Assembly: GCF_030697375.1 (NCBI RefSeq)
Contig: NZ_JAUYQD010000069.1
Location: forward strand, 1 to 64,000
Source: Rhodoferax sp.
Lineage (GTDB): Bacteria; Pseudomonadota; Gammaproteobacteria; Burkholderiales; Burkholderiaceae_C
DNA length: 64,000 bases
Direction of reading: 5' to 3'
A model generated the notes under the pieces. The model was not told where the DNA came from. It saw nothing but the letters and a program-made list of their open reading frames with translations, and did no database searches. Shown piece after piece: positions 11,213 to 43,735 of this stretch (positions within the stretch are counted from its first letter, which is position 1; every line of letters starts with the position of its first letter). The translations under genes and the position numbers were made by a program.

Positions 11213-11222
11213 GAGATACCCC

Positions 11223-26403: not shown

Positions 26404-26454
26404 GCGTCATGAAAGCTTCATTGTGGCGTCACCCGCCCGTCATTTGGTTTGACT
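26404..26454 (+). promoter_or_regulatory. PhoB-like array, five half-sites, upstream of siaA-like gene
   Basis: Half-sites at exact 11-nt spacing: GCGTCAT (26404), GCTTCAT (26415), GCGTCAC (26426), CCGTCAT (26437) and a poor TTTGACT (26448). The known Pho box is tandem CTGTCAT-like heptamers separated by 4 nt. The array ends 31 bp before the ATG of the siaA-like gene and also lies in front of the divergent CYTH-CHAD gene. Binding is inferred from the pattern. Confidence 0.7.
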
Positions 26455-26485
26455 ATCGTCACTTTCATCCAACACAGGAGCAGCA

Positions 26486-27772
26486 ATGCTGACGATTGAA
26501 AGCCTCTACGAATCTCTGGCAGCCACCGCAGAAGATGACATGCCGGGCTCCACCGCCATGGTGACGCGGGCTGAGCAGATGGCGCATAGCCAGGAAGCCG
26601 CCTCTGCGGACACCAGCAATGAGCAGCTTCGGGAGATGTTTGCACGCATTGAGGGGGTTTCCACGATTGCGGTGGTAGAGAACGGACGTCCCATTGGCCT
26701 GGTCAATCGGCATGTTTTCATGGAGCAGTATGCCAAGCCGTACGCCCGTGATCTGTACGGCCGCAAGAGCTGTGTGGCCTTCATGGACAAGTCGCCGTTG
26801 ATCGTTTCGGTGTCCACGCCTGTGGAAGTCCTGGTCAAGGCGGCGGTTGCCTCGGGCGGCAAGGTTTTGGACGACGGGTTTATCACCACCCTGAATGGCG
26901 AATACCATGGGGTGGGTACAGGGTTTGGCTTGATGAAAGCCATGTCGGAGATTGAGGCCGAGAAGACACGGCAATTGATGGCCAGCATCAATTACGCCAG
27001 CCTGATTCAGCGCTCCCATCTGGTGGAGTCGGACCAGGTTTTGCGCCACGATGTGGGTGACTATGGTTTGATCTGGATGCCCAGGGATGTGGTGGGTGGT
27101 GATGCCTACTTTTTCCGAAAAGTGGCTGACGGCGTGTTTGGTTGTGTGTTCGATTGCACAGGACATGGCGTTCCAGGGGCGTTCATGACGCTGATTGTTT
27201 TGTCCTTTCTTGAGCAAGTGGTTGTTCCAGACGCCAGTGGCATAGACCCGGGGGCTGTTCTGGCGCAGATGCATGGGTACATCAAGCGGGTTTTGCGCCA
27301 AGAAGACCGTTCTGCCAGCGACACCGCATCGGACGAAAAAGCGTCCAACGATGGCCTGGATGCGGCTGCGTTTGTCCTGGCGGCCGACCACAGCGGGTTG
27401 CGTTTTGCGTCCGCCAAGTTGAGCCTCCTGGTAGCCCGAGAAAGCAGCGCCGAGATCGAAGTGCTGGATGCGGACAAGCACGGCATTGGCTACGCAGACA
27501 CGCCGCTTGCAACCCAGTGGACCACCCGCCAGGTTGCGCTCGGCCCCCAGTGCATGGTGGTCATCCCCACCGACGGTGTCATTGACCAGATTGGTGGCAG
27601 CAAGTCGATTGCCCATGGGCGCAGACGCTTGGTGCAGTTCATGGCAGAGCACCGGCCACTGGATGCCGCGCAATTGATGCGCACTTTCGACACCCATTTC
27701 TCCCAGTGGCAGGGCAGTCAAAAGCGCCGGGATGACGTGACGCTGCTGGCTTTTGGCACACGCAGGCGCTGA
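26486..27772 (+). CDS. siaA: SiaA-like PP2C/SpoIIE phosphatase with N-terminal sensor domain
   Basis: A 428-aa protein. Residues about 45-150 form a CBS-like sensor domain (RPIGLVNRHVFMEQY, YGRKSCVAF, LDDGFITTLNGEYHGVGTG). A linker follows, then a SpoIIE-type PP2C serine/threonine phosphatase at about 190-425, with the metal ligands in RDVVGGDAYFF, FDCTGHGVPGAF and DDVTLLAFG. In Pseudomonas the SiaA phosphatase dephosphorylates SiaC, which then activates the diguanylate cyclase SiaD. SiaA there has a membrane and HAMP sensor, so the soluble CBS-like sensor here is a different input. An AGGAG site lies 5 nt upstream. It is the first gene of siaA-siaB-siaC, one base before siaB. Confidence 0.87.
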   Translation: MLTIESLYESLAATAEDDMPGSTAMVTRAEQMAHSQEAASADTSNEQLREMFARIEGVSTIAVVENGRPIGLVNRHVFMEQYAKPYARDLYGRKSCVAFMDKSPLIVSVSTPVEVLVKAAVASGGKVLDDGFITTLNGEYHGVGTGFGLMKAMSEIEAEKTRQLMASINYASLIQRSHLVESDQVLRHDVGDYGLIWMPRDVVGGDAYFFRKVADGVFGCVFDCTGHGVPGAFMTLIVLSFLEQVVVPDASGIDPGAVLAQMHGYIKRVLRQEDRSASDTASDEKASNDGLDAAAFVLAADHSGLRFASAKLSLLVARESSAEIEVLDADKHGIGYADTPLATQWTTRQVALGPQCMVVIPTDGVIDQIGGSKSIAHGRRRLVQFMAEHRPLDAAQLMRTFDTHFSQWQGSQKRRDDVTLLAFGTRRR

Positions 27773-27773
27773 C

Positions 27774-28343
27774 ATGAACCTCAATACCTTCGAGGTCTTC
27801 CAGGCCCAGGCCCATGCTTCAGGCATCATTTTTTACCACAGTGGCGAGTTCAACAGCGCCATCATTACCGCTGCAGCCGAATCGTTGAAGCACCGTATGG
27901 AAGAGGCCGGTGCGTCCGGACCCGCCAAGCGCAAGTTGTTTTCCACGTTTGTGGAAATGGCGCAAAACATCGTTCACTACGCGGCCCTGCCCCCGGATGC
28001 GGAACCCGGTTGTGCTGTCGGAAAACCTGGAACGATCGGTATCGGAAAAAACGGAGACGACTATTGGGTGGTTTGTGTCAATCGGGTTGAGACGGCACAC
28101 ATTGCGCGCCTGTCCGAAAAGCTGGATGCCGTGCGCTCCATGAGTCTGGAAGACATTCGCAAGAGTTACCGCGCCCAGTTGCACAACACCGAGCATGAAA
28201 CAACGGACACCGTGAGCAAGGGGGCTGGCTTGGGCTGGCTCACCATCGCCCGCGACAGCAAACAGCCGTTGGCGTACAGCTTTTCTTCCGACCTTGAGTC
28301 CCAAGGAAAAACAGCCTTCTTTTTTGTCAAGGCCGTTGTCTGA
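27774..28343 (+). CDS. siaB: SiaB-like kinase (DUF6272 type)
   Basis: A 189-aa protein matching SiaB in size and position. In the Pseudomonas system SiaB is the kinase that phosphorylates SiaC, opposing SiaA. Features seen include FVEMAQNIVHYA (histidine-kinase-like N-box helix), a GKPGTIGIGKNGDDYWV strand pair and GAGLGWLTIARDSKQP, which resembles the G-box of an ATP-binding fold. The start at 27774 follows the siaA stop after 1 nt. An earlier in-frame ATG lies inside siaA and is less likely. Confidence 0.82.
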   Translation: MNLNTFEVFQAQAHASGIIFYHSGEFNSAIITAAAESLKHRMEEAGASGPAKRKLFSTFVEMAQNIVHYAALPPDAEPGCAVGKPGTIGIGKNGDDYWVVCVNRVETAHIARLSEKLDAVRSMSLEDIRKSYRAQLHNTEHETTDTVSKGAGLGWLTIARDSKQPLAYSFSSDLESQGKTAFFFVKAVV

Positions 28344-28387
28344 TCCGCGGCATACCCATTTTTGTCACCCTTTGAAGGTCTATCACT

Positions 28388-28774
28388 ATGCAAACTCTCA
28401 GAGCCGCCCGCACCGCAGTCACCCCCGAAATTGTGTTTTCACGTTTGGAAAACAAATTGTTGATTGATGGCGAGTGCTACCCCGAAAATCCGCTGCCGTT
28501 CTTTACCCCGATTGTGGGGGCCATCAAGGCCCACCTGGAAAGCCATCGGCCCGGCCAATTCGACGCCCATCTGCGTCTTCATTACGTGAACAGCGCGTCC
28601 ACCAAAGGACTTCAGACCATTATTTCCGTGCTGAATGATGCGGGGGAGAAGGGCACCACCGTTAACGTGTATTGGACGCACGATCCAGAAGACGATGCGA
28701 TGGAAGAGTTGGGGCAAGATTTGGTGGAGGATTTCGCCAACGTGATGCTGTTTCGCCAGCCCCTGGCGGCCTGA
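28388..28774 (+). CDS. siaC: SiaC-like phospho-switch protein (DUF1987)
   Basis: A 128-aa protein of the DUF1987/SiaC family. The typical motifs are present: a YPENPLPFFTPI segment near 31-42, and HYVNSASTKGL near 65-75, whose Ser69/Ser71/Thr72 cluster contains the expected phosphorylation site (Thr68 in P. aeruginosa SiaC). Unphosphorylated SiaC binds and activates the SiaD diguanylate cyclase. An AAGG site precedes the ATG and there is a 44-bp gap after siaB. It is followed by a hairpin terminator rather than directly by an intact siaD. Confidence 0.85.
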   Translation: MQTLRAARTAVTPEIVFSRLENKLLIDGECYPENPLPFFTPIVGAIKAHLESHRPGQFDAHLRLHYVNSASTKGLQTIISVLNDAGEKGTTVNVYWTHDPEDDAMEELGQDLVEDFANVMLFRQPLAA

Positions 28775-28803
28775 GCAACTGCAGTACACCGACGTTCCTT
28801 GGA

Positions 28804-28836
28804 TTGGGCTGCGACTTGCAGCCCAGCTGCATTTTT
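28804..28836 (+). terminator. Rho-independent terminator after siaC
   Basis: A perfect 7-bp stem GGGCTGC/GCAGCCC (28806-28812, 28818-28824) with a 5-nt loop, extended by T-A and T-G pairs, is followed by five T at 28832-28836. It would end the siaABC transcript before the 71-aa ORF. Confidence 0.65.
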
Positions 28837-28860
28837 GGAAAAGAGTATTGAGAAAAATCT

Positions 28861-29076
28861 ATGTCACGCCAATTCGACGATTCAATGCGCCGCTTCAATG
28901 AGTTCAAAGACCGGTTGGGGGAAGATGACCCTCTTGTTTCCCAGTGGCGCACCGAGCTTGACATGCGCAGGGCTTTTGAATCCCAGTACCCCGCCAGACT
29001 CGCTCCCAGCCAAGGCGAAGGCTTGGCGGCGGGAGACGCGACCAGGGTTGGAAAACGGTTGGAAAAATTTCAATAG
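28861..29076 (+). pseudogene. 71-aa ORF, possible truncated siaD start
   Basis: A short ORF after siaC. Residues 1-42 are hydrophilic and helical (MSRQFDDSMRRFNEFKDRLG, then DDPLVSQWRTEL), the kind of region that precedes the GGDEF domain in SiaD-type cyclases. From residue 43 onward the sequence is encoded by a GC-rich palindrome (29001-29040) and looks unrelated. No GGDEF domain follows before olsB. I read it as the head of a deleted siaD, but a free-standing small protein cannot be excluded. Only the position and character support the siaD link. Confidence 0.4.
29001..29040. repeat. GC-rich palindrome in tail of the 71-aa ORF
   Basis: Arms CTCCCaGCCAAG (29003-29014) and CTTGGCggcGGGAG (29022-29035) surround a 7-nt centre. 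There is no T-run, so it looks more like a REP-type element than a terminator. It marks the point where the ORF stops looking like a normal protein. Confidence 0.55.
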
Positions 29077-29136
29077 TCCAGCGGAACTGTTTCGACCAGA
29101 GGAATGTTGTTGCGCCCATGGACGATGGCCTGTACC

Positions 29137-29176
29137 GCGTCACCAATTCTTCACCAAACTGCCTTCTTCGGGTCAT
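29137..29176 (+). promoter_or_regulatory. PhoB-like array upstream of olsB-like gene
   Basis: Heptamers in 11-nt phase: GCGTCAC (29137), TCTTCAC (29148), CTGCCTT (29159, poor) and GGGTCAT (29170). This array is weaker than the others, but the register is exact. It lies 59 bp before the olsB-like ATG. Confidence 0.55.
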
Positions 29177-29234
29177 ATTGAATCAGCAAACTCCGTTACG
29201 AGTGTAGATGTTTCAACTATGCAAGGAGACTACG

Positions 29235-30059
29235 ATGCAGAACTTTGCCAAGCCCCATGCTGCGTCAGCCGTACCTTTGGCGGGCGTTATTTCACAAGTC
29301 CACGAAGATGTGCAGGCCCGGCAGGACCCGCGTCCCGGAATCGTGGTTTCCTGGGCGGTGCACCAGGATGAGGTGCGCGCTGCACAGCGTTTGCGCTTCG
29401 ATGTGTTTGCCGGTGAAATGGGGGCACGCTTGAGCACCCCTTTGCCCGGGCACGATGTGGACCTGTTTGACAACTACTGCGAACACCTGCTGGTGCGTGA
29501 CCAGGCAACACAGCAGGTGATTGGCACTTACCGGGTGTTGACCCCGGCCCAGGCCAAACGCGTTGGCAGCACCTACAGCGATACCGAGTTTGACCTGACC
29601 CGCCTGCGCATGCTGCGCGAGCGTATGGTGGAATTGGGCCGCAGTTGTGTACATCCCGACCACCGGCATGGCGGCGTCATCATGGCGCTGTGGGGCGCAT
29701 TGGCCGAGTTCATGGTGCGCAACCAGTTGGACACCATGATCGGCTGTGCCAGTGTGCCCATGCTGCACCAGGGTATTGTCAGTGGCGACGCTGCGGCCAG
29801 CATCTGGCGCCAGGTGCAAACCACGCATTTGGCGCCCATTGAATACCATGTGCGTCCCCGCTTGCCTTTGCCTTTGGACCAATTGAACTCCTCGTTGGAG
29901 GTCGAACCTCCTGCGCTTATCAAAGGCTATTTACGCCTGGGCGCCAAGGTGCTGGGGCCACCGGCTTGGGATCCAGATTTCAATTCGGCGGATCTGCCAA
30001 TGCTGATGCGCATTGCCGATTTACCAGCCCGTTACCGCAAACACTTTCTGGGGGCGTGA
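29235..30059 (+). CDS. olsB: Ornithine lipid acyltransferase, OlsB-like GNAT
   Basis: A 274-aa acyltransferase of the OlsB / acyl-homoserine-lactone-synthase-like GNAT fold. It transfers a 3-hydroxyacyl chain from ACP to ornithine, the first step of phosphate-free ornithine lipids. Seen are AAQRLRFDVFAGEMGARL near the N-terminus, the catalytic acidic segment DLFDNYCEHLLVRD, the cofactor strand VELGRSCVHPDHRHGGVI and a C-terminal PALIKGYLRLGAKV. The start at 29235 has AGGAGA 6 nt upstream; an earlier in-frame Met at 29208 has none. No olsA is seen beside it, although some organisms use another acyltransferase. It is the first gene of a three-gene run with tight overlaps. Confidence 0.85.
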   Translation: MQNFAKPHAASAVPLAGVISQVHEDVQARQDPRPGIVVSWAVHQDEVRAAQRLRFDVFAGEMGARLSTPLPGHDVDLFDNYCEHLLVRDQATQQVIGTYRVLTPAQAKRVGSTYSDTEFDLTRLRMLRERMVELGRSCVHPDHRHGGVIMALWGALAEFMVRNQLDTMIGCASVPMLHQGIVSGDAAASIWRQVQTTHLAPIEYHVRPRLPLPLDQLNSSLEVEPPALIKGYLRLGAKVLGPPAWDPDFNSADLPMLMRIADLPARYRKHFLGA

Positions 30060-30940
30060 TGCGCACCGCCTTCGATGCCATTGGCGCGGATTGGCAAGGT
30101 ATGGTGGCAAACGCGGCGGTGGACAGCGATGACGACGCTGGCCATCGGCGCTATCGGGCTGTGTTCATCTCCGACATCCATTTGGGTACGGCAGGTTGCC
30201 AGGCCAAGGCTTTGCTGGATTTCATGCGACACCACCCCAGTGACCACCTCTACCTGGTGGGTGACATTGTGGACGGTTGGCAATTGCGCCGCCGCTGGTT
30301 TTGGCCGCAGGCCCACAACGATGTGGTGCAAAAGCTCTTGCGCCGTGCGCGCAAGGGTTGCAGGGTGGTTTTTATTCCCGGCAACCATGACGAATTTGCC
30401 CGGGCTTTTGTTGGACACCAGTTTGGTGGTATCGAGGTATGTGAGGACACGGTGCATACCACCGCCGATGGCCGCACCCTGTGGGTGACCCATGGCGACT
30501 ACTTTGACGGCGTCATTCAGTGCGCCAAGTGGCTTGCCTATGTGGGCGATAACCTGTATGAGTTCACCCTCAAACTCAACCGCTATCTCAATAGCCTGCG
30601 TGCGCGCTTGGGTTTGCCGTACTGGTCTTTGTCGGCGTATCTCAAACACAAGGTCAAAAAGGCTTTGAATTACGTGACGGACTTTGAAGTGGCGGTGGCC
30701 AACGAAGCGCGTTCTCGCGGGCACAGTGGCGTGGTGTGTGGGCATATCCACCGTGCCGAAATGCGTGAGATCAACGGCACCTTGTACTGCAACGATGGTG
30801 ACTGGGTGGAGAGCCGCAGCGCCTTGGTGGAACATATGGACGGCCATCTGGAACTGGTATTTTGGGGTGGAACACCCCTTGTTTCGGGTGGAAGCAGCAG
30901 CCTATTGGCGACTCAGGCATTGAAGGAGACACACGCGTGA
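30059..30940 (+). CDS. Metallophosphoesterase, PlcP-like phospholipase C
   Basis: A 293-aa calcineurin-type phosphoesterase of the UDP-2,3-diacylglucosamine-hydrolase-like group. All five metal motifs are present: ISDIHLG, VGDIVDGW, PGNHDE, THGDYFDG and GHIHRAE. In marine bacteria and rhizobia this type, called PlcP, removes the head group of phospholipids to give diacylglycerol during phosphate starvation, and it is paired with a glycosyltransferase, Agt. The neighbour downstream here is exactly such a glycosyltransferase, overlapping by 4 nt. A role in LPS synthesis (LpxH) is the alternative, but the context argues against it. The start at 30059 shares one base with the olsB stop (TGATG). 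Confidence 0.85.
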   Translation: MRTAFDAIGADWQGMVANAAVDSDDDAGHRRYRAVFISDIHLGTAGCQAKALLDFMRHHPSDHLYLVGDIVDGWQLRRRWFWPQAHNDVVQKLLRRARKGCRVVFIPGNHDEFARAFVGHQFGGIEVCEDTVHTTADGRTLWVTHGDYFDGVIQCAKWLAYVGDNLYEFTLKLNRYLNSLRARLGLPYWSLSAYLKHKVKKALNYVTDFEVAVANEARSRGHSGVVCGHIHRAEMREINGTLYCNDGDWVESRSALVEHMDGHLELVFWGGTPLVSGGSSSLLATQALKETHA

Positions 30941-32001
30941 AACTGGCCCTCATTACGGATGCATGGCTACCCCAGGTCAATGGGGTTGTCACAACGCTGG
31001 TGGAATTGGTTCGGGAGATGGAGGGCCTGGGGCACCAGGTGGTGGTGATTCATCCGGGGCTTTTCAAGACCCGGCCCTGTCCGGGCTATGCGGGTATTGA
31101 CCTGGCAGTTCGGCCCGCCAAGGCATTGGCCCAGCAGCTGGACGAAATAGCGCCGGATGCCGTGCACCTTGCCACAGAGGGCCCGTTGGGCTGGGCGGCA
31201 CGGCGTTACTGCCTTCGGCGCAAACTGGCATTCACCACGGCCTTTCACACGCGGTTCCCAGAGATTTTGAAGGCTGCACTCAAAATCCCCCTGTGGCTGG
31301 GTTATGTGGTGTTTCGGCACTTTCACAGGCCTTCCAGTGGTGTGCTGGTACCTACGCAAAGCGTGCTGCGCATGCTGGAATTGCGGAGGTTTAAAAACCT
31401 GCGGAGTTGGACCCACGGTGTGGATATGAAATTGTTCAGCTACAAAGAGTCGCCGGAGGTTTATGCGCCCTTGGGAATACTGGCGCGCCCGGTGTCGCTG
31501 TTTGTGGGGCGGGTGTCGTATGAAAAAAACATCGATGCATTCCTGAAGCTGGATGTTCCGGGTACCAAGGTGGTGTGTGGCGTGGGGCCCCTGGAGACCT
31601 CTTTGCGCGAACGTTATCCGCATGTGCGCTGGCTCGGATTGTTGCCGCGCGATGAATTGGCACAGGTGTATTCGGCAGCGGATGTATTTGTCATGCCCAG
31701 CCAGTCGGAAACGTTTGGCCTGGTGATGCTGGAGGCCATGGCCAGTGGAACGCCGGTGGCAGCTTACCCCGTGGAAGGGCCCCTGGAAGTGGTCGGCAGC
31801 CCGGCCCAGGGGGGTGTGTTGGAAAAAGACCTTTCCGTGGGATGGTACAGCGCGCTGACGGTTCCCCGGCACGAGGCGCGCGCCCGGGCCATGGCATTCA
31901 GTTGGGCGTATGCTTCGTTGTTGTTCCTGGGGTACTTGGTGCCCGCAAGGCAGGGGAAAGTGTTGGATCCGGTTGTCATTACGCACAGTGCTGTCACATA
32001 A
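30937..32001 (+). CDS. Family-4 glycosyltransferase, Agt-like
   Basis: A 354-aa GT-B glycosyltransferase with the N-terminal opening TDAWLPQVNGVV typical of MgtA/GtfA enzymes and the C-terminal nucleotide-sugar site SETFGLVMLEAMASGTPV. After PlcP, Agt adds a sugar to diacylglycerol to make glycolipids that replace phospholipids. The start is a GTG at 30937 with AGGAG 8 nt upstream, overlapping the phosphoesterase stop. The stop codon lies inside the PhoB-like array of ppk. A mannosyltransferase role in another envelope lipid is possible. Confidence 0.85.
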   Translation: MKLALITDAWLPQVNGVVTTLVELVREMEGLGHQVVVIHPGLFKTRPCPGYAGIDLAVRPAKALAQQLDEIAPDAVHLATEGPLGWAARRYCLRRKLAFTTAFHTRFPEILKAALKIPLWLGYVVFRHFHRPSSGVLVPTQSVLRMLELRRFKNLRSWTHGVDMKLFSYKESPEVYAPLGILARPVSLFVGRVSYEKNIDAFLKLDVPGTKVVCGVGPLETSLRERYPHVRWLGLLPRDELAQVYSAADVFVMPSQSETFGLVMLEAMASGTPVAAYPVEGPLEVVGSPAQGGVLEKDLSVGWYSALTVPRHEARARAMAFSWAYASLLFLGYLVPARQGKVLDPVVITHSAVT

Positions 32002-32042
32002 CTGTCATTTGAACCGTCAACAATTCTTCATCTTATTGTCAT
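31991..32042 (+). promoter_or_regulatory. PhoB-like array upstream of ppk
   Basis: A near-perfect Pho box, CTGTCAC (31991) and CTGTCAT (32002) with a 4-nt spacer, is followed by a second in-phase set: CCGTCAA (32014), TCTTCAT (32025) and TTGTCAT (32036). There is one 12-nt step between the two sets. It overlaps the stop codon of the glycosyltransferase gene. Confidence 0.8.
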
Positions 32043-32058
32043 AGTCAGATTGGGAGCC

Positions 32059-34164
32059 ATGTCGTCTACTTTTCGCAAACTCAAATCACAGGAGGCGGGT
32101 GCTGCACCGGAGTTGCTGGACCGTGACCAGAGTCTGCTGGCATTCAATGAGCGGGTGCTGGATTGGGCAGTGCGCGACGACGTGCCCTTGATGGAGCGCT
32201 TGCGCTACTTGTGCATCGTTTCTTCCAATCTGGACGAGTTTTTCGAAGTCCGAGCCGAACCGCATCTGGCAGCCAACCGGGCCAATGACCGCAAAGGCTT
32301 GTACACGGTGGACACCTTTGAGCGTTTGGCAGCTTCGTTGCACCATTTGGTAGTGCGCCAATATGCGCTGTACAACGAAAAATTGATGCCTGCATTCGAG
32401 GCGCAGGGCATCAAAATTATTTCGCATGGCGAGCGCAACGCCGTTCAGAGGCAGTGGGTGCGTCAGCATTTTGAGCGTGAAGTGCGCCCTTTGCTGATTC
32501 CGGTGGGGCTAGACCCCTCGCATCCGTTTCCGCAGGTGGCCAACAAGTCGCTGAACTTCATCGTCCGCCTGAGTGGCAAGGATGCGTTTGGGCGTGAGAA
32601 CGAAATTGCCATCGTCAAAGTTCCGCGTGTGCTGCCGCGCCTGATTCGCATGCCCGATAAAGTGTCCGGCGGCCTCACTATGTTTGTCTCCCTGTCCAGC
32701 GTCATCCGGGCGCACCTGTCAGATTTGCTGCCAGGTCGCACTGTGGGGCAGTTTTCTCAGTTTCGTGTCACCCGGCATTCGGACCTGGCGGTGGATGAGG
32801 AGGACGTCCAAAATTTGCGTACCGCCTTGCGCGCGGGGCTGGAGGTGCGCCACTACGGGCAGGCCGTGCGGCTGGAGGTGTCCGCTGGTTGCTCGGAGTA
32901 TCTGGCCGAATTTTTGCTGAAAGAGTTTGATCTGCCCCAACAGGCTTTGTACCGGGTGGCGGGCCCGGTGAACCTGGTGCGCCTGACCCAGTTGATTGAT
33001 TTGCTGGACCGCTCCGACCTGTGTTTCACGCCCTACAAGGCCAGTTACCCCGTGCAAATGAACCATGGGCAGTGTATTTTTGACCAACTCAAGCTGGGCG
33101 ATATTGTGATCCACCAGCCCTTTGAGAGTTTTGACGGTGTGCTGGCATTTTTGCGGGAGGCGGTGAACGATCCCCAGGTGTTGGCCATCAAGCAAACCAT
33201 TTACCGTACTGGATCCGACTCCACACTGATGGACTTGCTGCGTGAGGCGGTGCGGCGTGGCAAGGAGGTGACGGTAGTGGTTGAGCTCAAGGCGCGGTTT
33301 GACGAAGAGGCCAATATCAACTGGGCCGAAATGCTTGAATCGATTGGTGCCCAGGTGGTTTACGGTGTGGTCGGGTTGAAGACCCACGCCAAGATGATGC
33401 TGGTGACCCGGCGCGAAGGCCGGGCGCTCAGGCGCTACGGGCACCTGTCTACGGGAAATTACAACCCGCGAACGGCTAGCCTTTACACCGACCTAAGCCA
33501 CATCACCGCCGATGCAGCCCTCACGGCGGATATGGACCATGTGTTTGTGCACTTGGCCAGCCACAGCAAATTGCCCCGTTTGCGCAAGGTCTGGATGGCG
33601 CCTTTTTACCTGCACCGCAATCTCATCGACAAAATCGACAGTCTGGGCGCCGCGGCTGCCAAGGGAAATTCGTCCCGTATTGTTGCCAAAATGAATTCGC
33701 TGACCGATGAAGCCCTGATTCGCAGCCTGATGCGGGCGGGTTCGCTGGGGGTGAAAATTGACCTGATCGTACGCGGCGCGTGCATGTTGCCGGCGCAAGT
33801 GCCTGGCCATACCGACAACATTCGGGTGCGCTCCATCATTGGTCGGTTTTTGGAGCACTCCAGGGTGTTCTATTTTCGCCAGGGGGAGGCGGAGGAGTTG
33901 TATTTGTCCAGTGCCGATTGGATGAACCGCAACATGGTGCGCCGTGTGGAATTGGCATGGCCCGTGACGGATGCTGTGCAACGCCAGCGGATTGTGGACG
34001 AATGCCTGGTGGCCTATTTGCATGACGGCGTGGATGCCTGGGACATGGGGCCTGACGGCACCTACACCCACACCAAAGGGGATGGTAAAACGGCCGTGCA
34101 TGGTGCACAGGCCGCTTTAATGGCGCGGTATGGCCGCTATGTGGCAGGGAAACGGGGAGTTTGA
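32059..34164 (+). CDS. ppk1: Polyphosphate kinase 1
   Basis: A 701-aa PPK1, which makes inorganic polyphosphate from ATP reversibly. The usual N-terminal segment is present (LLAFNERVLDWAVRDDVPLMERL, SSNLDEFFEVR), the head domain follows, and then two PLD-like catalytic domains with the autophosphorylated His443 in GLKTHAKMMLV and the second His near ARGACMLPAQVPGHTDNI. The ATG at 32059 is chosen; an in-frame TTG 9 bp upstream has no site before it. It sits behind a Pho box and is followed after 4 bp by sixA. Length is normal. Confidence 0.95.
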   Translation: MSSTFRKLKSQEAGAAPELLDRDQSLLAFNERVLDWAVRDDVPLMERLRYLCIVSSNLDEFFEVRAEPHLAANRANDRKGLYTVDTFERLAASLHHLVVRQYALYNEKLMPAFEAQGIKIISHGERNAVQRQWVRQHFEREVRPLLIPVGLDPSHPFPQVANKSLNFIVRLSGKDAFGRENEIAIVKVPRVLPRLIRMPDKVSGGLTMFVSLSSVIRAHLSDLLPGRTVGQFSQFRVTRHSDLAVDEEDVQNLRTALRAGLEVRHYGQAVRLEVSAGCSEYLAEFLLKEFDLPQQALYRVAGPVNLVRLTQLIDLLDRSDLCFTPYKASYPVQMNHGQCIFDQLKLGDIVIHQPFESFDGVLAFLREAVNDPQVLAIKQTIYRTGSDSTLMDLLREAVRRGKEVTVVVELKARFDEEANINWAEMLESIGAQVVYGVVGLKTHAKMMLVTRREGRALRRYGHLSTGNYNPRTASLYTDLSHITADAALTADMDHVFVHLASHSKLPRLRKVWMAPFYLHRNLIDKIDSLGAAAAKGNSSRIVAKMNSLTDEALIRSLMRAGSLGVKIDLIVRGACMLPAQVPGHTDNIRVRSIIGRFLEHSRVFYFRQGEAEELYLSSADWMNRNMVRRVELAWPVTDAVQRQRIVDECLVAYLHDGVDAWDMGPDGTYTHTKGDGKTAVHGAQAALMARYGRYVAGKRGV

Positions 34165-34168
34165 GAGC

Positions 34169-34630
34169 ATGGACCTGATTTTGTGGCGGCATGCAGAGGC
34201 CATTGACCTCGACTTGGTGGGTGACGACATGGTGCGAACCCTGACGCCGCGGGGGGAGAAGCAGGCTGCCCGTATGGCCGCGTGGCTGGACCGGCAGTTG
34301 CCCGAGGGCGCCAAGGTGTGGGCCAGCCCGGCGCTGCGGGCGGAGCAAACGGCCAAGGCATTAGGGCGAAAGTTCAGGACCAGTCCCGCGCTGGCGCCAC
34401 TGGCCACGGTGGACCAGTTGCTGGAGCTGGTGCAGTGGCCCCATGCCAAAGGCTGTGTAGTGGTGGTGGGGCACCAGCCCACCCTGGGGCAGGCCATTGC
34501 GAGGCTGCTGGCCTTGAACGACTACGAGTGTGCCGTTAAAAAAGGCGCAGTGTGGTGGTTGCGCTACCGTGAGCGCGAAGCCATTAACAAGACGGTGGTG
34601 CTCACGGTTCAGTCTCCCGAAATGCTGTAG
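34169..34630 (+). CDS. sixA: SixA-like phosphohistidine phosphatase
   Basis: A 153-aa histidine phosphatase with the RHxx catalytic loop at the N-terminus (ILWRHAEA, His9) and the second catalytic His in VVGHQPTLGQA. SixA removes phosphate from phospho-His on phosphotransfer proteins. Pairing with ppk, whose intermediate is phospho-His, is recurrent in proteobacteria. It starts 4 bp after ppk, probably in the same transcript. The start at 34169 is supported by a GGGGAG tract; an upstream in-frame Met lies inside ppk. Confidence 0.9.
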   Translation: MDLILWRHAEAIDLDLVGDDMVRTLTPRGEKQAARMAAWLDRQLPEGAKVWASPALRAEQTAKALGRKFRTSPALAPLATVDQLLELVQWPHAKGCVVVVGHQPTLGQAIARLLALNDYECAVKKGAVWWLRYREREAINKTVVLTVQSPEML

Positions 34631-34646
34631 CGCCTACCAGAGTCGG

Positions 34647-35156: not shown

Positions 35157-35173
35157 TCAGTTTTTTCCTTTTT

Positions 35174-35206
35174 GTTAAACGATATATACAGTTTATATCG
35201 TTTAAC
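35174..35206. promoter_or_regulatory. Perfect 13-bp inverted repeat, candidate operator
   Basis: Arms GTTAAACGATATA (35174-35186) and TATATCGTTTAAC (35194-35206) with a 7-nt centre lie in an A/T-rich island just upstream of the histone-like gene. There is no T-run beyond either arm, so a terminator is unlikely. The symmetry suits a dimeric repressor or activator of unknown identity. Confidence 0.65.
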
Positions 35207-35245
35207 CATGGGGGTCAATTCTGGTGAAATTGGGTGTTGCGTGGC

Positions 35246-35296
35246 TTGTCATTGTTCTGTAATACCTCTGTCACGGAGTCGTCATTTCGTCGGCAT
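35246..35296 (+). promoter_or_regulatory. PhoB-like array, five half-sites, upstream of EAL/GGDEF gene
   Basis: Exact 11-nt register: TTGTCAT (35246), CTGTAAT (35257), CTGTCAC (35268), TCGTCAT (35279) and TCGGCAT (35290). It ends 32 bp before the GTG start. This is as good a match to the Pho box as the arrays at ppk and pstS. Confidence 0.8.
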
Positions 35297-35328
35297 AAAC
35301 TGATTTTTGTCATCAGCAGGAGAAAATT

Positions 35329-37146
35329 GTGCACCTTCAATTGTTGCGGAATGTGACCCCGGTTTCGGAGGTCGCCGGAGGGCTGGGGCCTTTGGAGCGC
35401 TTGCTGGATGAGCGCCTTCTCTACCCGGTGTTTCAGCCCATTGTCCATCTGGGAAATGCCTCCATTTACGCCCATGAGGCCCTGATACGTGGTCCCCTGG
35501 GTTCGGTCCTGCACACACCGGACGCGCTCTTGCGGGCTGCCGCACAAGAGCAGCTCAGCTACGAATTTGAGATTGCCTGCATAGAGGCCGCCATGCAAAG
35601 CTGGGGGCAACTGCGGGTGGCGGGTCGTTTGTTTGTCAACATCAGCGCCATGGCCCTGACGCAGTTGTTTGCGCTACGCGGACGTGAAGCGCTGCTGGGC
35701 TTGATTACGGGCTTTGGCGTTGTGCCGCGTATGCTGGTGCTGGAGATTACCGAGCACGAGCGTGTGGAGGACATGGACCATCTGGCGCAGGTGGTTGCAG
35801 AGGTGCGCTCCGCCGGGGTGGCTCTGGCTTTGGACGATTTTGGGGACGGGCGCTCCAGCCTGCGGCTGTGGTCGCAGCTCAAGCCAGAACTGGTCAAGAT
35901 TGACAAATACTTCACCCGCAACATCAGTGAACACGGCGACAAGCTCAAAACCATCCAGGCCTTGCAGCAAATTGCGGAGATTTTTGGTACGCAGTTGGTG
36001 GCCGAGGGTATTGAAACCCCGGAAGACCTGCGGGTGCTGCGTGACTTGGGAATTACCTATGGGCAGGGATATTTCCTGGGCCACCCAGACCGCAAGCCTC
36101 TGAAGTACCTGGGGGTCGATTCCTTGCGGGTCTTGCGCGAGCGCCAGGTGGCCGTTTTCCCGGAGTTGACACGGTCTACGCCGGGCGGGCATCTGCGCAG
36201 TCTTTCGCTGGTGCGGGCGCCTACGGTAAGCCTTGAAACCAGCAATGACGAGTTGGCCGGCATTTTTTTAGACATGCCAGACTTGCACGCTGTGGCCTTG
36301 GTGAACACGGAGCGTCCGGTGGCCATCATCAACCGCGTGCAGTTCATGAACGAGTACACCAAGCTGTATTACCGCGAAGTGTGGGGCCGAAAATCCTGCG
36401 CGGTGCATGCCAATTTTGAGCCCCGCATCATTGAGCGGGACCACAGTGTTGATGAGCTGGTGGGGATCTTGACCTCGCAGGACCAACGCTACCTGAGCGA
36501 CGGATTCATTGCCACCGAGAACGGCCGCTATGCAGGGCTGGGCACGGGGGACCAATTGGTGCGTTCAGTCACCGAGGTGCGTATTGAAGCCGCCCGCCAT
36601 GCCAACCCCCTGACGTTTTTGCCCGGCAATATTCCGATCAGCCAACACATCGAGCGCTTGCTTAAGAAGCAATCTCGCTTTGTGGCGTGTTATGCCGATT
36701 TAAACCACTTCAAACCCTTTAACGACCACTACGGTTATTGGCGCGGGGACGAGATGATTCGCCTGGTTGCCAAAATCGCGCTGGAGCAGTGCGACCCCCA
36801 GTGGGATTTTCTCGGCCATGTGGGGGGGGATGATTTCATCCTGCTGTTCCAAAGCCCGGACTGGCAGGTGCGTTGTGAACGTTTGGTGGTGGAATTCGCC
36901 GCCCGGGCCGAGGCCATGTTTGACGAAGACGCCAGGCGCCAAGGGGGCATTCAGGCCGAAGACCGGCACGGAGTTTCCCGGTTTTTTCCCTGCACCACCT
37001 TGTCCATCGGTGCCGTGGTCATCGATGGCAGCCAGTTTTCCAGGGCCGAAGACGTGGCCAACCTGGCCGCCTCTGCCAAACACGATGCCAAACAGGGCGG
37101 GGGTGGGGTATTTGAGAAAGTGATCCCAGTCCCCGCGCCGGTTTGA
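35329..37146 (+). CDS. EAL - CBS-like sensor - GGDEF c-di-GMP protein
   Basis: A 605-aa cytosolic protein with the domain order EAL (about 20-265), a CBS-like sensor (about 300-425) and GGDEF (about 430-600). The EAL catalytic set is intact (EALIRG, EITE, DDFGDG, KIDK, EGIET), so phosphodiesterase activity is expected. The GGDEF site reads GGDDF and the domain has an odd insert after it (EDRHGVSRFFPCTT), so cyclase activity is doubtful. The sensor is homologous to that of the siaA-like phosphatase at 26486 (shared RP-I-NR-FM-Y, GRKSC and DGFI-T-NG-Y-G-GTG). The start is a GTG with AGGAG 7 nt upstream. It is preceded by a PhoB-like array and is convergent with ppx, 2 bp apart. Confidence 0.92.
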   Translation: MHLQLLRNVTPVSEVAGGLGPLERLLDERLLYPVFQPIVHLGNASIYAHEALIRGPLGSVLHTPDALLRAAAQEQLSYEFEIACIEAAMQSWGQLRVAGRLFVNISAMALTQLFALRGREALLGLITGFGVVPRMLVLEITEHERVEDMDHLAQVVAEVRSAGVALALDDFGDGRSSLRLWSQLKPELVKIDKYFTRNISEHGDKLKTIQALQQIAEIFGTQLVAEGIETPEDLRVLRDLGITYGQGYFLGHPDRKPLKYLGVDSLRVLRERQVAVFPELTRSTPGGHLRSLSLVRAPTVSLETSNDELAGIFLDMPDLHAVALVNTERPVAIINRVQFMNEYTKLYYREVWGRKSCAVHANFEPRIIERDHSVDELVGILTSQDQRYLSDGFIATENGRYAGLGTGDQLVRSVTEVRIEAARHANPLTFLPGNIPISQHIERLLKKQSRFVACYADLNHFKPFNDHYGYWRGDEMIRLVAKIALEQCDPQWDFLGHVGGDDFILLFQSPDWQVRCERLVVEFAARAEAMFDEDARRQGGIQAEDRHGVSRFFPCTTLSIGAVVIDGSQFSRAEDVANLAASAKHDAKQGGGGVFEKVIPVPAPV

Positions 37147-37148
37147 GT

Positions 37149-38696
37149 TCAGGCGCCAATAATCTCAAGCGACCAAGGCGTTTTTTGCCAGGCCAGCACT
37201 TCCTCGCGCAGCAAGTAGGCTGACTGGGGGTAGACCGCTGCCCAACCGGCGCGGCAGGTCAGCCGGGCATGGGTGCTTTTGGGGTCCATCCGCTCCAGTG
37301 TCATACCCGCCAAATCGGGGTCACGCCGGGCGTGGCACAGAATCACGGCCAGGCGCAGTGTCATGAGCTGGGCAACAAGGTCGTTCTCGGCCAGGACGGC
37401 TTCCAGCTTGCGCAGCTTGCCACGGTGCCCCAACACCAGCAGGCTGAGGCGGTGCATTTCGGAAAGTGAAAAACCCATGGCGTCCGCATTGTCCAGAATG
37501 TAGGCGCCATGCTTGTGGTAATCGCTGTGGGAGATGTGGCTGCCAATCTCGTGCAACTGGGCCGCCCAGCTTAGTTTGCGCAGGAGGTTGGCTTGATTCG
37601 CAAGGTTTGACGTGGGCTGTGTTGCCATCAGTTGGGTGAACAATTCAGTGGCCACCTTGCCAACCCGCTCTCCATGGGTGGTATCCACGGCAAATTTTTT
37701 CTCCAGACGGTGCACGCTTTTGAAGCGTAAATCGTCTTCGGTGTGGGTGGTCCCCAGCAGGTCACAAATCAGGCCGTGGCGCAGACCACCGGCCGCCCGC
37801 TGCATGCTCTGAATGCCCAACAGGCTGAACACCGCGCGCATGACGCTCACGCCGCCCCCGATGATGGCTTTGCGGTCTTCGCGCATGCCGGGTAGTTTGA
37901 GCCGGTCCGCGCTTTGGGCTAGCACCAATTTTTCAAGCAACCAGTCCAGTCCATCCTGTGTCACCGTGTCGGCGGGCCAGCCTGCCGCAACCAACACGTC
38001 GCCAATGGCGCCTACGGTGCCCGCGGACCCGTAGGCGGCATCCCAGAGTTCGGGGTGGTAGGCATCCAGGGCTTCATCCAAAACGGCCTTGGCGGCAATT
38101 TCAGCAATTTCGAACGATTTTCGGGTGAATTGACCATTGGGGAAGTAGCGGTTGGACCAGGCGATGCTGCCCACCCGGTACGACTCCATGACTTGGGGGA
38201 CAACACCATGGCCCAGGATGAGTTCGGTGGAACGGCCGCCGATGTCAATCACCAGGCGGCGCTCCTCCGAGCGCTCCAGCATTTGGGCCACGCCTTGGTA
38301 AATCAGGCGCGCTTCCTCGCGCCCTGAAATCACATCAATGGGAAAGCCCAGCACCTGGGTGGCTCGGCTCAGAAACTCGTCGCGGTTGCGGGCTTCGCGC
38401 AGGGTTTGGGTGGCGACGGCACGTACTTCGTCCACATTGAAGGCCGCCAGCCGTTCCCCAAAGCGCGCCAGACAGTCCCAGCCACTTTGCATGGCTTGGG
38501 GCGTCAGGTTGCGGTTTTCGTCGAGCCCGGCGCCTTGGCGCACGGTTTCTTTTAAGTATTCGGTGCGCCGGAATTCACCATGATCTACCCGTCCGATTTC
38601 AAGCCGGAAACTGTTGGAGCCCAAATCTACAGCGGCCAGGCGATTTCCGTTTTGCATTCGCTTTTGTCTCTTCGAGTTTTTGACGGTCATGAGCAT
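37149..38696 (-). CDS. ppx: Exopolyphosphatase, Ppx/GppA family
   Basis: A 515-aa member of the ASKHA-fold Ppx/GppA family. It has the phosphate loop VDLGSNSFRLE near the N-terminus, the conserved catalytic Glu region ISGREEARLIYQGV, the second loop VIDIGGRSTELILG and a C-terminal HD-like domain (HEIGSHISHSDYHKHGAYIL). It releases phosphate from polyphosphate ends and, in some members, converts pppGpp to ppGpp. The start at 38696 has GGAG 8 nt upstream and gives the usual N-terminal length; an ATG at 38657 is the alternative. It lies 38 bp downstream of the substrate-binding-protein gene. Together with ppk it covers synthesis and breakdown of polyphosphate. Confidence 0.94.
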   Translation of the reverse strand: MLMTVKNSKRQKRMQNGNRLAAVDLGSNSFRLEIGRVDHGEFRRTEYLKETVRQGAGLDENRNLTPQAMQSGWDCLARFGERLAAFNVDEVRAVATQTLREARNRDEFLSRATQVLGFPIDVISGREEARLIYQGVAQMLERSEERRLVIDIGGRSTELILGHGVVPQVMESYRVGSIAWSNRYFPNGQFTRKSFEIAEIAAKAVLDEALDAYHPELWDAAYGSAGTVGAIGDVLVAAGWPADTVTQDGLDWLLEKLVLAQSADRLKLPGMREDRKAIIGGGVSVMRAVFSLLGIQSMQRAAGGLRHGLICDLLGTTHTEDDLRFKSVHRLEKKFAVDTTHGERVGKVATELFTQLMATQPTSNLANQANLLRKLSWAAQLHEIGSHISHSDYHKHGAYILDNADAMGFSLSEMHRLSLLVLGHRGKLRKLEAVLAENDLVAQLMTLRLAVILCHARRDPDLAGMTLERMDPKSTHARLTCRAGWAAVYPQSAYLLREEVLAWQKTPWSLEIIGA

Positions 38697-38734
38697 AGCA
38701 CTGGCTCCAAAGTGGTCCTGGAGCGGGCCAAGTG

Positions 38735-39880
38735 CTAACCGACCAGCCGCCCGCCGGCCGCGATCATGCTCTGGGTGACAAAGGTGCCGCTGCGGGCTTT
38801 GGCCTCCAACGCAATATGGAAGCCGCCCAAGTCCATGGAACTGCGTTTTTGCAGCGCTTGCAAGACGCTTTGGCGGGTGAGGGGACCATCGACGCTTTGG
38901 AGCATTTCAAAAGTGTAGCGTGCGGCTACAAACCCTGCCAGGCTATGGGCGGTTGGCGGTTCATCAAACAGGCGCCCCAAGGTCTCACGGTACGTTTTGA
39001 CAATCGGCAGGTTCGAGTTCACCATGGGCACCACCTGGGTTGCAATCACCGAGGCGTACCGTGAGCCGCCCATTTGCGACAAGGTTTGCAGGTTGACATC
39101 GGACATGGCGATGATGTAACGCTGCGCGGCCTGTTTGTCGATGCCCTGAGAAAATTGCAGCAGTTCGGGTGTGCCGCCAATGAAGATGAGGACGCGGGGG
39201 CTGTCGGCGCTCAGGGCACTTCCCAGTTGCTGCAGATCGGTCGTGGGGCTGTAAGACTTGAGTCGTATTTTCAGCCTGGCGGCGGTTTGCTCCATACCGT
39301 CCCGGTAAGCCGCATATTCGGCGGCAGTTCCGTAGACTGCGCCCAGCTCCGGAATTCCCATGGTGGACAGGTTTTTGATGGCATGGACTATCTGGTCTTG
39401 GCGCGACGCGAATATGGGAAAGGTGTTGTCCGCGTTATTGACGTCCAGGTTTTGCAGCCAAGGTGCCACATGGGCCATGTCGGGCACTTCACGCCGCAAA
39501 ATGTCTCTCACATGGCTGGCCGCCCGATCACCCGCGGTGCCAAACAGGGCGAGGTATTGGGGCAGGTTTTTGAGTGTGCCGAGCGTCGCACGCACGCCGG
39601 CGGCGCTGTCGTCAAATTCCAGTACCTCATGGTGTATGGCTTTACCCCGGACGCCGCCTTTGGCATTGATGTCCTTCCATGCCGCCCGTGAGCCGACCAA
39701 GAAATCCTTGGAAACATCAATCTGGCTGGGGGACATGTCCACGATTTGAACCACTGTGGGTTTGCGCCCATTGGCGCTGCCCGTCGGGGCCTGGGCCCAC
39801 GCGGGAATGGCACTGGCGGCGGCAAGGCCGAACGTGGCGCCCAAGAGGGCGCGGCGACGGGGATGGTGTAGGGATGGCAT
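38735..39880 (-). CDS. Periplasmic substrate-binding protein, branched-chain amino acid type
   Basis: A 381-aa type-I periplasmic binding protein of the ABC branched-chain amino acid/amide class. The N-terminal RRRALLGATFGLAAASA is a Tat-like or Sec signal. The mature part follows the family (VVQIVDMSPSQIDVSKDF, then a FGTAGDRAAS loop). No ABC permease or ATPase gene is adjacent, so it is an orphan; such orphans are common in this family. It lies on the same strand as ppx, 38 bp upstream of it. The ligand is unknown. Confidence 0.85.
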   Translation of the reverse strand: MPSLHHPRRRALLGATFGLAAASAIPAWAQAPTGSANGRKPTVVQIVDMSPSQIDVSKDFLVGSRAAWKDINAKGGVRGKAIHHEVLEFDDSAAGVRATLGTLKNLPQYLALFGTAGDRAASHVRDILRREVPDMAHVAPWLQNLDVNNADNTFPIFASRQDQIVHAIKNLSTMGIPELGAVYGTAAEYAAYRDGMEQTAARLKIRLKSYSPTTDLQQLGSALSADSPRVLIFIGGTPELLQFSQGIDKQAAQRYIIAMSDVNLQTLSQMGGSRYASVIATQVVPMVNSNLPIVKTYRETLGRLFDEPPTAHSLAGFVAARYTFEMLQSVDGPLTRQSVLQALQKRSSMDLGGFHIALEAKARSGTFVTQSMIAAGGRLVG

Positions 39881-39930
39881 CGTTTTTTTGAATAAATGGT
39901 AATGGATGAATCCGTGGAATCTGCATTCAT

Positions 39931-39979
39931 TTGCTATTAAATAGATAGCTGCTTACGCACTATCTATAAGGGCTTGAAT
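39931..39979 (+). repeat. Dispersed repeat copy, intergenic
   Basis: TTGCTATTAAATAGATAGCTGC is followed by TTACGCA, a variable tract and AAGGGCTTGAATGC. It differs from the other copies by one base in the core (TTACGCA for TTGCGCA). It is the main content of the 151-bp gap between the substrate-binding-protein gene and the fasciclin gene. Confidence 0.85.
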
Positions 39980-40031
39980 GCGATTTGATATCTAGATCCG
40001 GCGCCAACAACTCGCCGGACCCGAACGGTGC

Positions 40032-40535
40032 TTATTTCTTTACCGGAGGCACGAGCACCGCGTCCACCAGATGCAGAACGCCATTGGTGGCGGCAATGTC
40101 GGCCTGGGTGACCGCAGCGCTTTCAATCGTTACAAAATCGCCAGCCTTGGACAGGGCGACCTTGGCGCTGTTGAGGGTCTTTACGTCGCTGTTCTTGACG
40201 TCAGCGGCCATGGTTTTGCCGGGGATGACATGGTAGGTGAGCAAACTCTTGAGTTTTTCCGGGTGTTGGGCCAAATCGTCCATGGTCTTGGCGGGGACGG
40301 CTTTGAAAGCATCATTGTTTGGCGCAAACACCGTGAATGGACCCGGTGTTTTGAGGGTTTCGGTCAGACCGGCTTGGTTTACCAAGCTGTTCAGTGTGCT
40401 GAGCGAAGGGGTGCTGGCAATGGTGTCGGCGAGGTTGACGGGCGCTGGTTTGGTAGCGCAGCCGACTATGCTGGCGACAAGGGCTGCGGCGAGCACGGCA
40501 CGGCGGGTGGTGGTAATGAGGGTGCTGCTTGTCAT
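40032..40535 (-). CDS. Fasciclin-domain lipoprotein
   Basis: A 167-aa lipoprotein with lipobox ASIVGC (Cys26) and one complete FAS1 domain: IASTPSLSTLNSLVNQAGL at the start, FTVFAPNNDAFKAV, LLTYHVIPGK and NGVLHLVDAVLVP at the end. FAS1 domains mediate adhesion; bacterial ones are cell-surface or periplasmic and their ligands are mostly unknown. The start at 40535 is supported by GGAG 7 nt upstream. It is divergent from pstS and has its own PhoB-like array on the minus strand, which suggests induction under phosphate limitation. Confidence 0.92.
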   Translation of the reverse strand: MTSSTLITTTRRAVLAAALVASIVGCATKPAPVNLADTIASTPSLSTLNSLVNQAGLTETLKTPGPFTVFAPNNDAFKAVPAKTMDDLAQHPEKLKSLLTYHVIPGKTMAADVKNSDVKTLNSAKVALSKAGDFVTIESAAVTQADIAATNGVLHLVDAVLVPPVKK

Positions 40536-40577
40536 GGGTTTACTCCAGTTTGAAACCCACGAGCGTAGAAAACTTGT

Positions 40578-40617
40578 GTGACGACGATGTGACAATTTTT
40601 TGAAATAGGAGTGACAA
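40578..40617 (-). promoter_or_regulatory. PhoB-like array upstream of fasciclin gene
   Basis: Read on the minus strand, four heptamers lie in 11-nt register: TTGTCAC (40617-40611), ATTTCAA (40606-40600), TTGTCAC (40595-40589) and TCGTCAC (40584-40578). They end 43 bp before the fasciclin ATG. This set is separate from, and opposite to, the pstS array. Confidence 0.75.
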
Positions 40618-40652
40618 AGTCCATTTTTAAAAACGGAAGTCCTTGTTGTGTT

Positions 40653-40681
40653 TTGTCACACGGATGTCACAAATTCTTCTT
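40653..40681 (+). promoter_or_regulatory. Pho box upstream of pstS
   Basis: TTGTCAC (40653) and ATGTCAC (40664), with a 4-nt spacer, are followed by a weaker TCTTCTT (40675). It lies 42 bp before the pstS ATG, the position known for PhoB-controlled pst operons. Confidence 0.82.
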
Positions 40682-40722
40682 AAAGTGCAGGCATTCCTTA
40701 ACCAACCTACCAAGGGTATTTG

Positions 40723-41766: not shown

Positions 41767-41808
41767 GCGCTGCGACGTACTGAACCCGAATTGACGGAGC
41801 TTGTCCCC

Positions 41809-43700: not shown

Positions 43701-43735
43701 CCGGGCTCTGAGCCCTCTAATCTGAAAAACACCCT

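Follow-up and report, generated by a model that had tools for sequence, protein, structure and literature searches.

In the Pho regulon as described in PMC4415409 and PMC10294691, PhoB and PhoR control targets such as pst and phoX through Pho boxes, which are tandem direct repeats of CTGTCAT-like heptamers with an 11-nt step. We have analyzed a stretch of 64,000 nt from a Rhodoferax sp. (contig NZ_JAUYQD010000069.1; hereafter the window), belonging to a genome of 5.78 Mb in 115 contigs (G000). A 14-kb island within this window holds six arrays of Pho-box type before the siaA-like, olsB-like, ppk, EAL/GGDEF, fasciclin and pstS genes (Table 1). On the one hand, the island shares the repeats, PhoB and PhoR and the pst genes with the regulons described, and phoX carries a Pho box in this genome as well. 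On the other hand, siaABC, a gene for an EAL-CBS-GGDDF protein and a fasciclin gene are added here, several arrays have four heptamers, and the hexamer variants CACACT (olsB) and AACAAT (ppk) occur at the same 10-nt gap. Based on these sequences, we consider it highly probable that this is a conserved Pho-regulon island in which PhoB governs six units, with siaABC and the EAL gene forming a CBS-tuned layer of cyclic di-GMP (c-di-GMP) signaling.

Parts of the island also resemble other described systems. SiaABCD of P. aeruginosa (PMC7278518, PMC7647112) shows the same phosphatase-kinase-SiaC order, PP2C fold and SiaC acceptor region, and a SiaD-like cyclase is adjacent in some relatives of the genome studied here. 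However, the phosphatase here carries a CBS pair while the sensor half of SiaA finds no counterpart in it, Ser replaces Thr68, SiaD is not adjacent, and a predicted Pho promoter contrasts with the carbon and SDS cues described there; the upstream signal of the SiaABC-type switch is called unknown in PMC7278518. RapA of the RapA-LapD system in P. fluorescens Pf0-1 (PMC3032545) is a c-di-GMP phosphodiesterase encoded by a Pho-box gene, which is expressed at low phosphate and lowers c-di-GMP. Unlike RapA, the EAL protein here, which is known from sequence alone, has a GGDDF domain in addition to its CBS pair, and a link to LapD is not known. DdpB (BB2957) of Bordetella (PMC12805831), which we liken to it by domain description, has two CBS domains between EAL and GGDDF, but it shows ESL in place of EAL and is described as having no known activity, whereas the protein here has EALIRG and a predicted Pho promoter. 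In PlcP-Agt lipid remodeling (PMC4796936, PMC8528852), a metallophosphoesterase adjoins a glycosyltransferase with a Pho box upstream, as in the island, where olsB stands in front, ppk stands behind, and PlcP and Agt are assigned by position.

In terms of novelty, Pho regulons with pst, phoX, plcP-agt or a phosphodiesterase under Pho control are already known. The membership of ppk is ordinary as well. What would be new is a SiaABC partner switch in a CBS-PP2C version that stands behind a predicted Pho promoter. Among the best-ranked titles and abstract openings of open-licence PMC articles, no siaABC, fasciclin or EAL-CBS-GGDDF gene was reported in a Pho regulon; the best-ranked part of the same literature held no report of siaABC or DUF1987 under PhoB and no published PhoB regulon for the bacterial group of this genome.

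Six arrays and their -10 hexamers

A sequence-only reading of the window had placed exact or near-exact 11-nt arrays before the six genes. All six were confirmed at the coordinates given, each with a NANNNT hexamer exactly 10 nt past a strong last heptamer (TANNNT in four promoters, AACAAT for ppk and CAAACT for olsB). In detail, ppk is out of register by one 12-nt step, the olsB heptamers are degenerate, and pstS has two good heptamers and a degenerate third. When both strands of the window were scanned for four-heptamer clusters without supervision, with 30 Markov shuffles as control, the top five were EAL (35246, score 35.95), siaA-like (26404, 34.05), fasciclin (40578 minus, 33.95), olsB (29137, 29.75) and ppk (32014, 28.1). 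Considering that the shuffle maxima were 26.55-29.9, the first three clearly exceed chance and olsB and ppk do not, while pstS (25.3) is unremarkable as a four-heptamer array.

Next, a PhoB matrix was built from 16 heptamer pairs upstream of pstS in relatives (plus-strand loci, own site excluded). With this matrix, four-heptamer and pair scores of the own sites were compared with 373 kb of this genome outside the island, which amounts to ~745,000 positions on both strands. The four-heptamer score of the own site was reached there at no position for EAL and fasciclin, at two for siaA (both in the phoX box) and at nine for olsB, and the pair score at none for pstS, two for ppk and six for siaA. 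The two top background places were the phoX Pho box and a site within coding sequence. Within the island, pair scores were 3.4 or less upstream of plcP, agt, sixA, siaB, phoB and phoU, and 7.8 upstream of siaC and ppx via a single heptamer.

The exact pair YGTCAY-N5-YGTCAY has 11 matches in 5.78 Mb, five of them inside the island (siaA, ppk, EAL, fasciclin and pstS). Since the reversed pattern has 8 matches, the genome-wide number is hardly raised; it is the clustering that is raised. When the heptamer pair is followed by 10 nt and TANNNT, only four exact matches exist in the genome, and all are in the window (siaA-like, EAL/GGDEF, fasciclin and pstS). Because this pattern was composed after the sites had been seen, what gives it weight is that no further exact match exists, together with the evidence from relatives. 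One mismatch adds ppk, phoX, a minus-strand site at 23697-23728 of the window and seven others, 14 matches in all, and since the reversed pattern with up to one mismatch has 9, single-mismatch matches need outside support.

The arrays before siaA and the EAL gene might also be read by another OmpR-family regulator with a similar heptamer, which would make them a separate regulon; direct repeats with 10-11-nt steps are common in this family in general. We consider this very improbable, since the matrix that detects both arrays was trained on pstS sites only, and since their spacing and -10 phasing are the same as those of pstS.

The pattern searches also touched other places. The exact-pair match at C28:73057 falls within coding sequence and was taken as chance, another is at C99:51773, and a strong pair at C34:43292 (L165) lies immediately before a Fic-domain gene. 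The site at 23697-23728, with TACCTT at gap 10, is a seventh Pho-like promoter of the window; the open reading frame (ORF) behind it, of ~45 aa (~23685-23547, minus, by eye), resembles a small membrane peptide. Of two further one-mismatch Pho-like sites, C31:286512-286543 minus (L319) has a GGDEF match nearby and is followed by a gene whose product, we presume, resembles an HD-GYP protein, and C57:10718-10749 minus (L323) lies 29 nt before a lipoprotein that by eye resembles a secreted metallophosphoesterase.

Recurrence of arrays and phasing in relatives

In 150 genomes of the family, matches were found for the EAL gene in 50 (E at most 1e-60), siaA in 13, olsB in 121, ppk in 138, fasciclin in 78 and pstS in 135. 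We scored 150 nt upstream of the best 30 loci per gene and of all 13 for siaA, own locus included. A region passed when one or more of its three scores exceeded the 99th percentile of 951 strictly in-gene windows, which are an imperfect proxy for intergenic DNA because of their coding composition. Passing regions numbered 26/30 for EAL, 12/13 for siaA, 22/30 for olsB, 26/30 for ppk, 30/30 for fasciclin and 30/30 for pstS, the last being partly circular because 16 of these 30 sites trained the matrix; 18/951 controls passed any threshold. Six of the eight failing olsB loci have the end of phoX directly upstream (L047, L051, L054, L056, L062 and L067), L055 has a weak PhoX-like piece (36%) there, and L070 has its array further up, at -199. 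In G125, of the same genus, a small ORF separates olsB from its array (four-heptamer score 21.4), the end of which lies 328 nt upstream of the gene. Thirteen of 20 further EAL homologues score 7.4 or more, and 11 of those have a phased hexamer. Among ORF-upstream windows with a gap of at least 60 nt in the fetched regions, targets and non-targets pooled, 30/172 pass the pair threshold, with most of the top ranks taken by island targets, siaA-like genes, phoX and a phytase-like gene. An antisense-upstream control was dropped with 94/163 positive, because the heptamer is nearly palindromic and fasciclin and pstS share one region.

The -10 phasing is the most convincing feature, because the matrix knew nothing of the -10 hexamer. 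A fixed gap between box and -10 element is typical of Pho promoters. In 130 of 163 loci (33 were left out with a pair score, or for olsB a four-heptamer score, <10, or with too short a sequence), NANNNT stands at gap 10 in 115, and at any other gap from 2 to 17 in at most 14. By gene, the gap-10 hexamer was found in 30/30 pstS, 20/25 fasciclin, 19/22 EAL, 21/21 olsB and 20/23 ppk loci. The commonest hexamers are TAAAGT for pstS, TACGCT or TAAGCT for fasciclin, CACACT for olsB, and AACAAT or AACACT for ppk.

Outside the island, siaA-like operons of relatives reach a pair score of at least 11 in 8/12 cases vs 4/1208 control windows (p=2e-15). A scan of named genomes gave at least 80 siaA-like loci; the 20 whose match covers the CBS part were scored, and the remaining 60 listed matches, which begin at residue 109 or later, were left unscored. 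Among these 20 of the matches listed, 7 score 10 or more (7/639 controls, p=2e-8), and in 14 the best pair is followed by TANNNT at gap 10, vs 1/636 control windows. The phased loci include Herbaspirillum, Vogesella, Cupriavidus, Duganella, Paraburkholderia, Janthinobacterium, Acidovorax, Phytobacter and Methylomonas; three of them (L197, L199 and L206) have pair scores of only 2.0-3.2, and L201, L207, L209, L213, L217 and L219 have no phased hexamer.

Several observations weigh against the inclusion of all six units. The own olsB array is weak, its pair score being equalled at 38 background positions. An earlier control set, flawed because its windows overran short genes and very strict in its thresholds for that reason, passed only 1/13 siaA, 12/30 EAL, 20/30 olsB, 21/30 ppk, 21/30 fasciclin and 28/30 pstS regions. 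Failures under the present controls include EAL L002, L003, L024 and L028, siaA L035 and ppk L098-L101; 7/20 further EAL homologues score <7.4, and only 5/9 scored siaA loci of the family have the phased hexamer. In addition, binding of PhoB does not necessarily entail regulation: most of the intragenic PhoB sites of E. coli are inert (PMC10294691), and some confirmed Pho boxes lie in genes with no obvious phosphate response (PMC4415409). It may be, then, that only the classical units (pst, ppk, olsB-plcP-agt and fasciclin) respond to PhoB and that the arrays of siaA and the EAL gene only resemble Pho boxes or bind PhoB without effect, a reading that also draws on the lower median pair score of siaA (11.8 vs 21.9 for pstS). 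We consider it unlikely. The siaA and EAL sites are two of only four exact pairs with a phased -10 in the genome, the phasing recurs in the siaA-like loci of named genomes and in the EAL loci, and, in contrast to the inert sites described, both arrays precede genes and are found again in relatives.

The siaA, olsB and EAL arrays therefore score better than random against the own-genome background, against in-gene and region controls and in -10 phasing, olsB being least clear in the own genome. The proposal of the sequence-only reading that the six units belong to a single predicted regulon gains support from the arrays, the orthologue controls and the phasing; from the shuffle control it gains support for EAL, siaA and fasciclin, not for olsB, ppk and pstS.

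SiaABC, the EAL-CBS-GGDDF protein and their CBS pair

The gene labels had to be narrowed. The product called SiaA combines a CBS pair with a PP2C phosphatase domain; it stays below the SiaA model NF038263 (161.3 bits, cut-off 700), its match being limited to residues 150-423, and the CBS pair at residues about 40-145 replaces the SiaA sensor part. In a predicted model, its PP2C domain has P. aeruginosa SiaA-PP2C (6k4e) as the best structural match. For the SiaB-family kinase and the SiaC-family protein, the narrower equivalogs NF038264 and NF038265 did not reach their cut-offs. Ser69 of SiaC aligns by eye with Thr68 of P. aeruginosa; the acceptor region is kept in relatives, with Ser at this position in nearly all of 36 matches listed. 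siaABC is a three-gene run in 12/12 relatives and in the own genome, where it sits between a CHAD gene and olsB and where siaC has no second match. Likewise, the acyltransferase is named only OlsB-like because it is below the NCBIfam OlsB equivalog cut-offs (154.5 vs 350 and 142.7 vs 320).

In the EAL-CBS-GGDDF protein, the EAL motif letters are kept in 30/30 loci, DDFGDG in 29/30 and KIDKYF in 27/30; GGDDF is kept in 30/30, and RxxD 5-8 residues before GG is found in 0/30. Considering these motifs, we expect the protein to be a phosphodiesterase whose GGDDF domain may bind GTP but would not act as a cyclase. A GTP-binding, non-cyclase domain of this type has a precedent. The CBS domain, located between EAL and GGDDF, is homologous to the CBS pair of the SiaA-like phosphatase (36% over 124 aa, E=1e-24), where Pfam CBS gives 21 bits, under its cut-off of 24. 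Modeled alone, the phosphatase copy has a pLDDT of 88.6; by title, most of the PDB matches listed for it are CBS-domain proteins or enzymes in which CBS domains are known, and the CBS pairs matched include structures with ATP, ADP or AMP. The shared pair is probably a nucleotide sensor, a role that CBS pairs often have; PMC8846402 refers to CBS domains as presumed energy sensors.

Whether SiaABC is part of a c-di-GMP layer is less certain. The siaA-like gene has no adjacent SiaD, as the window holds no SiaD cyclase after siaC, and in the own genome none of 70 matches to a SiaD-like query covers its first 50 residues, so that no clear SiaD was found. The EAL gene lies 6.5 kb from siaC, G125 has no siaABC, with nothing like it at the CHAD-olsB position, and an EAL-CBS-GGDEF paralogue (61%) on contig C99 of the own genome (L187, L173) has no box. 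Moreover, the EAL enzyme would lower c-di-GMP and a SiaC-activated cyclase would raise it, opposite pulls that make the direction of change unpredictable. These points weigh against our main reading, and it is possible, though short of an even chance, that SiaABC is not a c-di-GMP device: SiaC would then control another partner, and the EAL-CBS-GGDDF gene would be independent, sharing a CBS ancestor and the regulon. The ORF after siaC in L178, which matches no Pfam family, speaks for this alternative as well. Against this alternative, SiaD-like cyclases stand directly after siaC in 7/24 loci listed (135-152 bits, cut-off 290), in G084 an EAL-CBS-GGDEF gene lies upstream of siaA on the same strand, and the two co-occur in 9/13 siaA genomes, own included, vs 41/137 others (p=0.006, uncorrected for kinship).

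Some neighbors of these genes are worth recording. A CYTH-CHAD gene (24742-26394 of the window, minus) is divergent from siaA, and a CHAD gene also precedes olsB in the G125 island. The C99 paralogue adjoins a CHAD gene with a Pho pair upstream; with a GC content of 66.2%, compared with 59-62% for the window and for three other contigs, C99 may be of foreign origin or a contamination. In L204 (Cupriavidus sp. D384, 1937-3550), bcsG, a cellulose synthesis gene, precedes siaABC and a SiaD-like cyclase, an arrangement suggesting that cellulose is an output there.

The whole island, a proposed mechanism and its meaning

The pst-pho operon, which the sequence-only reading had counted in, does belong to the island. 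pstS, phoB and phoR were identified by domain search, the island thus encoding its own PhoB (TIGR02154, 327 bits, cut-off 296.2); pstC, pstA, pstB and phoU are presumed from position. The metallophosphoesterase and glycosyltransferase stand in a unit headed by a Pho box before olsB, with none directly before plcP, and the PlcP-like phosphoesterase had no PDB match. An adhesion role for the fasciclin gene would follow from the fasciclin name only. Gene order is largely kept in G125, G134, G145, G014, G061 and G027, which represent several genera, with differences: no EAL match in the G134 stretch, no fasciclin match in G014 and G061, and partial rearrangement in G027. In L193, a locus of a relative (1991-15858), phoX-olsB-plcP-agt-ppk lie on one strand, phoX with its own array, and EAL, ppx and pst lie beyond; we regard this locus as a compact version of the island.

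Table 1. Positions of promoter elements and genes of the island, numbered within the window.
Feature	Position	Strand	Remarks
Pho array before siaA-like gene	26404..26443	+	GCGTCAT-GCTTCAT-GCGTCAC-CCGTCAT, 11-nt steps
-10-like hexamer, siaA	26454..26459	+	TATCGT, 10 nt after last heptamer
SiaA-like phosphatase	26486..27772	+	CBS pair and PP2C (SpoIIE)
SiaB-family kinase	27774..28343	+	NF038262, 153.6 bits (cut-off 85)
SiaC-family phosphoprotein	28388..28774	+	PF09345, 102 bits (cut-off 24.5)
Pho array before olsB	29137..29176	+	GCGTCAC-TCTTCAC-CTGCCTT-GGGTCAT
-10-like hexamer, olsB	29187..29192	+	CAAACT, 10 nt after array
OlsB-like ornithine N-acyltransferase	29208..30059	+	
Metallophosphoesterase	30059..30940	+	PlcP-like by position before glycosyltransferase
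GT4 glycosyltransferase	30937..32001	+	Agt-like by position
Pho box pair before ppk	31991..32008	+	CTGTCAC-CTGTCAT; more irregular heptamers to about 32042
Hexamer, ppk	32019..32024	+	AACAAT, 10 nt after pair; similar hexamers there in relatives' ppk
Polyphosphate kinase (ppk)	32050..34164	+	
SixA-like histidine phosphatase	34169..34630	+	His_Phos_1
Pho array before EAL/GGDEF gene	35246..35285	+	TTGTCAT-CTGTAAT-CTGTCAC-TCGTCAT
-10-like hexamer, EAL	35296..35301	+	TAAACT, 10 nt after array
EAL-CBS-GGDDF protein	35329..37146	+	EAL motifs kept, GGDDF replaces GGDEF, no RxxD 5-8 residues before GG
Ppx/GppA exopolyphosphatase	37149..38657	-	single heptamer only upstream
Fasciclin-domain protein	40032..40535	-	
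-10-like hexamer, fasciclin	40562..40567	-	TACGCT
Pho array before fasciclin	40578..40617	-	TTGTCAC-ATTTCAA-TTGTCAC-TCGTCAC
Pho box pair before pstS	40653..40670	+	TTGTCAC-ATGTCAC
-10-like hexamer, pstS	40681..40686	+	TAAAGT, 10 nt after pair; TANNNT there in 30/30 pstS loci
pstS-pstC-pstA-pstB-phoU-phoB-phoR	40723..47318	+	pstS, phoB, phoR by domain search

We propose that at low phosphate PhoR would phosphorylate PhoB, which would bind the head-to-tail 11-nt repeats at the -35 position, with the -10 hexamer 10 nt downstream. PhoB would then switch on pstSCAB-phoUBR, fasciclin, ppk-sixA, olsB-plcP-agt, the EAL-CBS-GGDDF gene and siaABC. In terms of function, pst would serve phosphate uptake, ppk, with ppx and sixA alongside, would handle polyphosphate, and plcP-agt and olsB would replace phospholipids, so that the lipid and polyphosphate units would save or store phosphorus. 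siaABC and the EAL protein would be the signaling layer, whose amount is set by PhoB and whose activity may be tuned by the CBS pair; such tuning would set SiaC phosphorylation and c-di-GMP breakdown.

In summary, our study provides a testable promoter list and a precise rule, by which the -10 hexamer follows the heptamer pair after 10 nt. It would also connect phosphate starvation and a likely nucleotide sensor with two poorly understood c-di-GMP parts, namely the SiaABC-type switch and a DdpB-like EAL-CBS-GGDDF protein. We see an even chance that, in beta- and gammaproteobacteria, the CBS-PP2C SiaABC is a widespread part of the Pho regulon that has so far had no name and that, with the EAL-CBS-GGDDF protein, it joins phosphate starvation through PhoB and energy state through CBS into one c-di-GMP decision. 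On our main reading, a shortage of phosphate would jointly trigger phosphate uptake and storage, phosphorus-free membrane lipids and a signaling module related to one that controls biofilms elsewhere.

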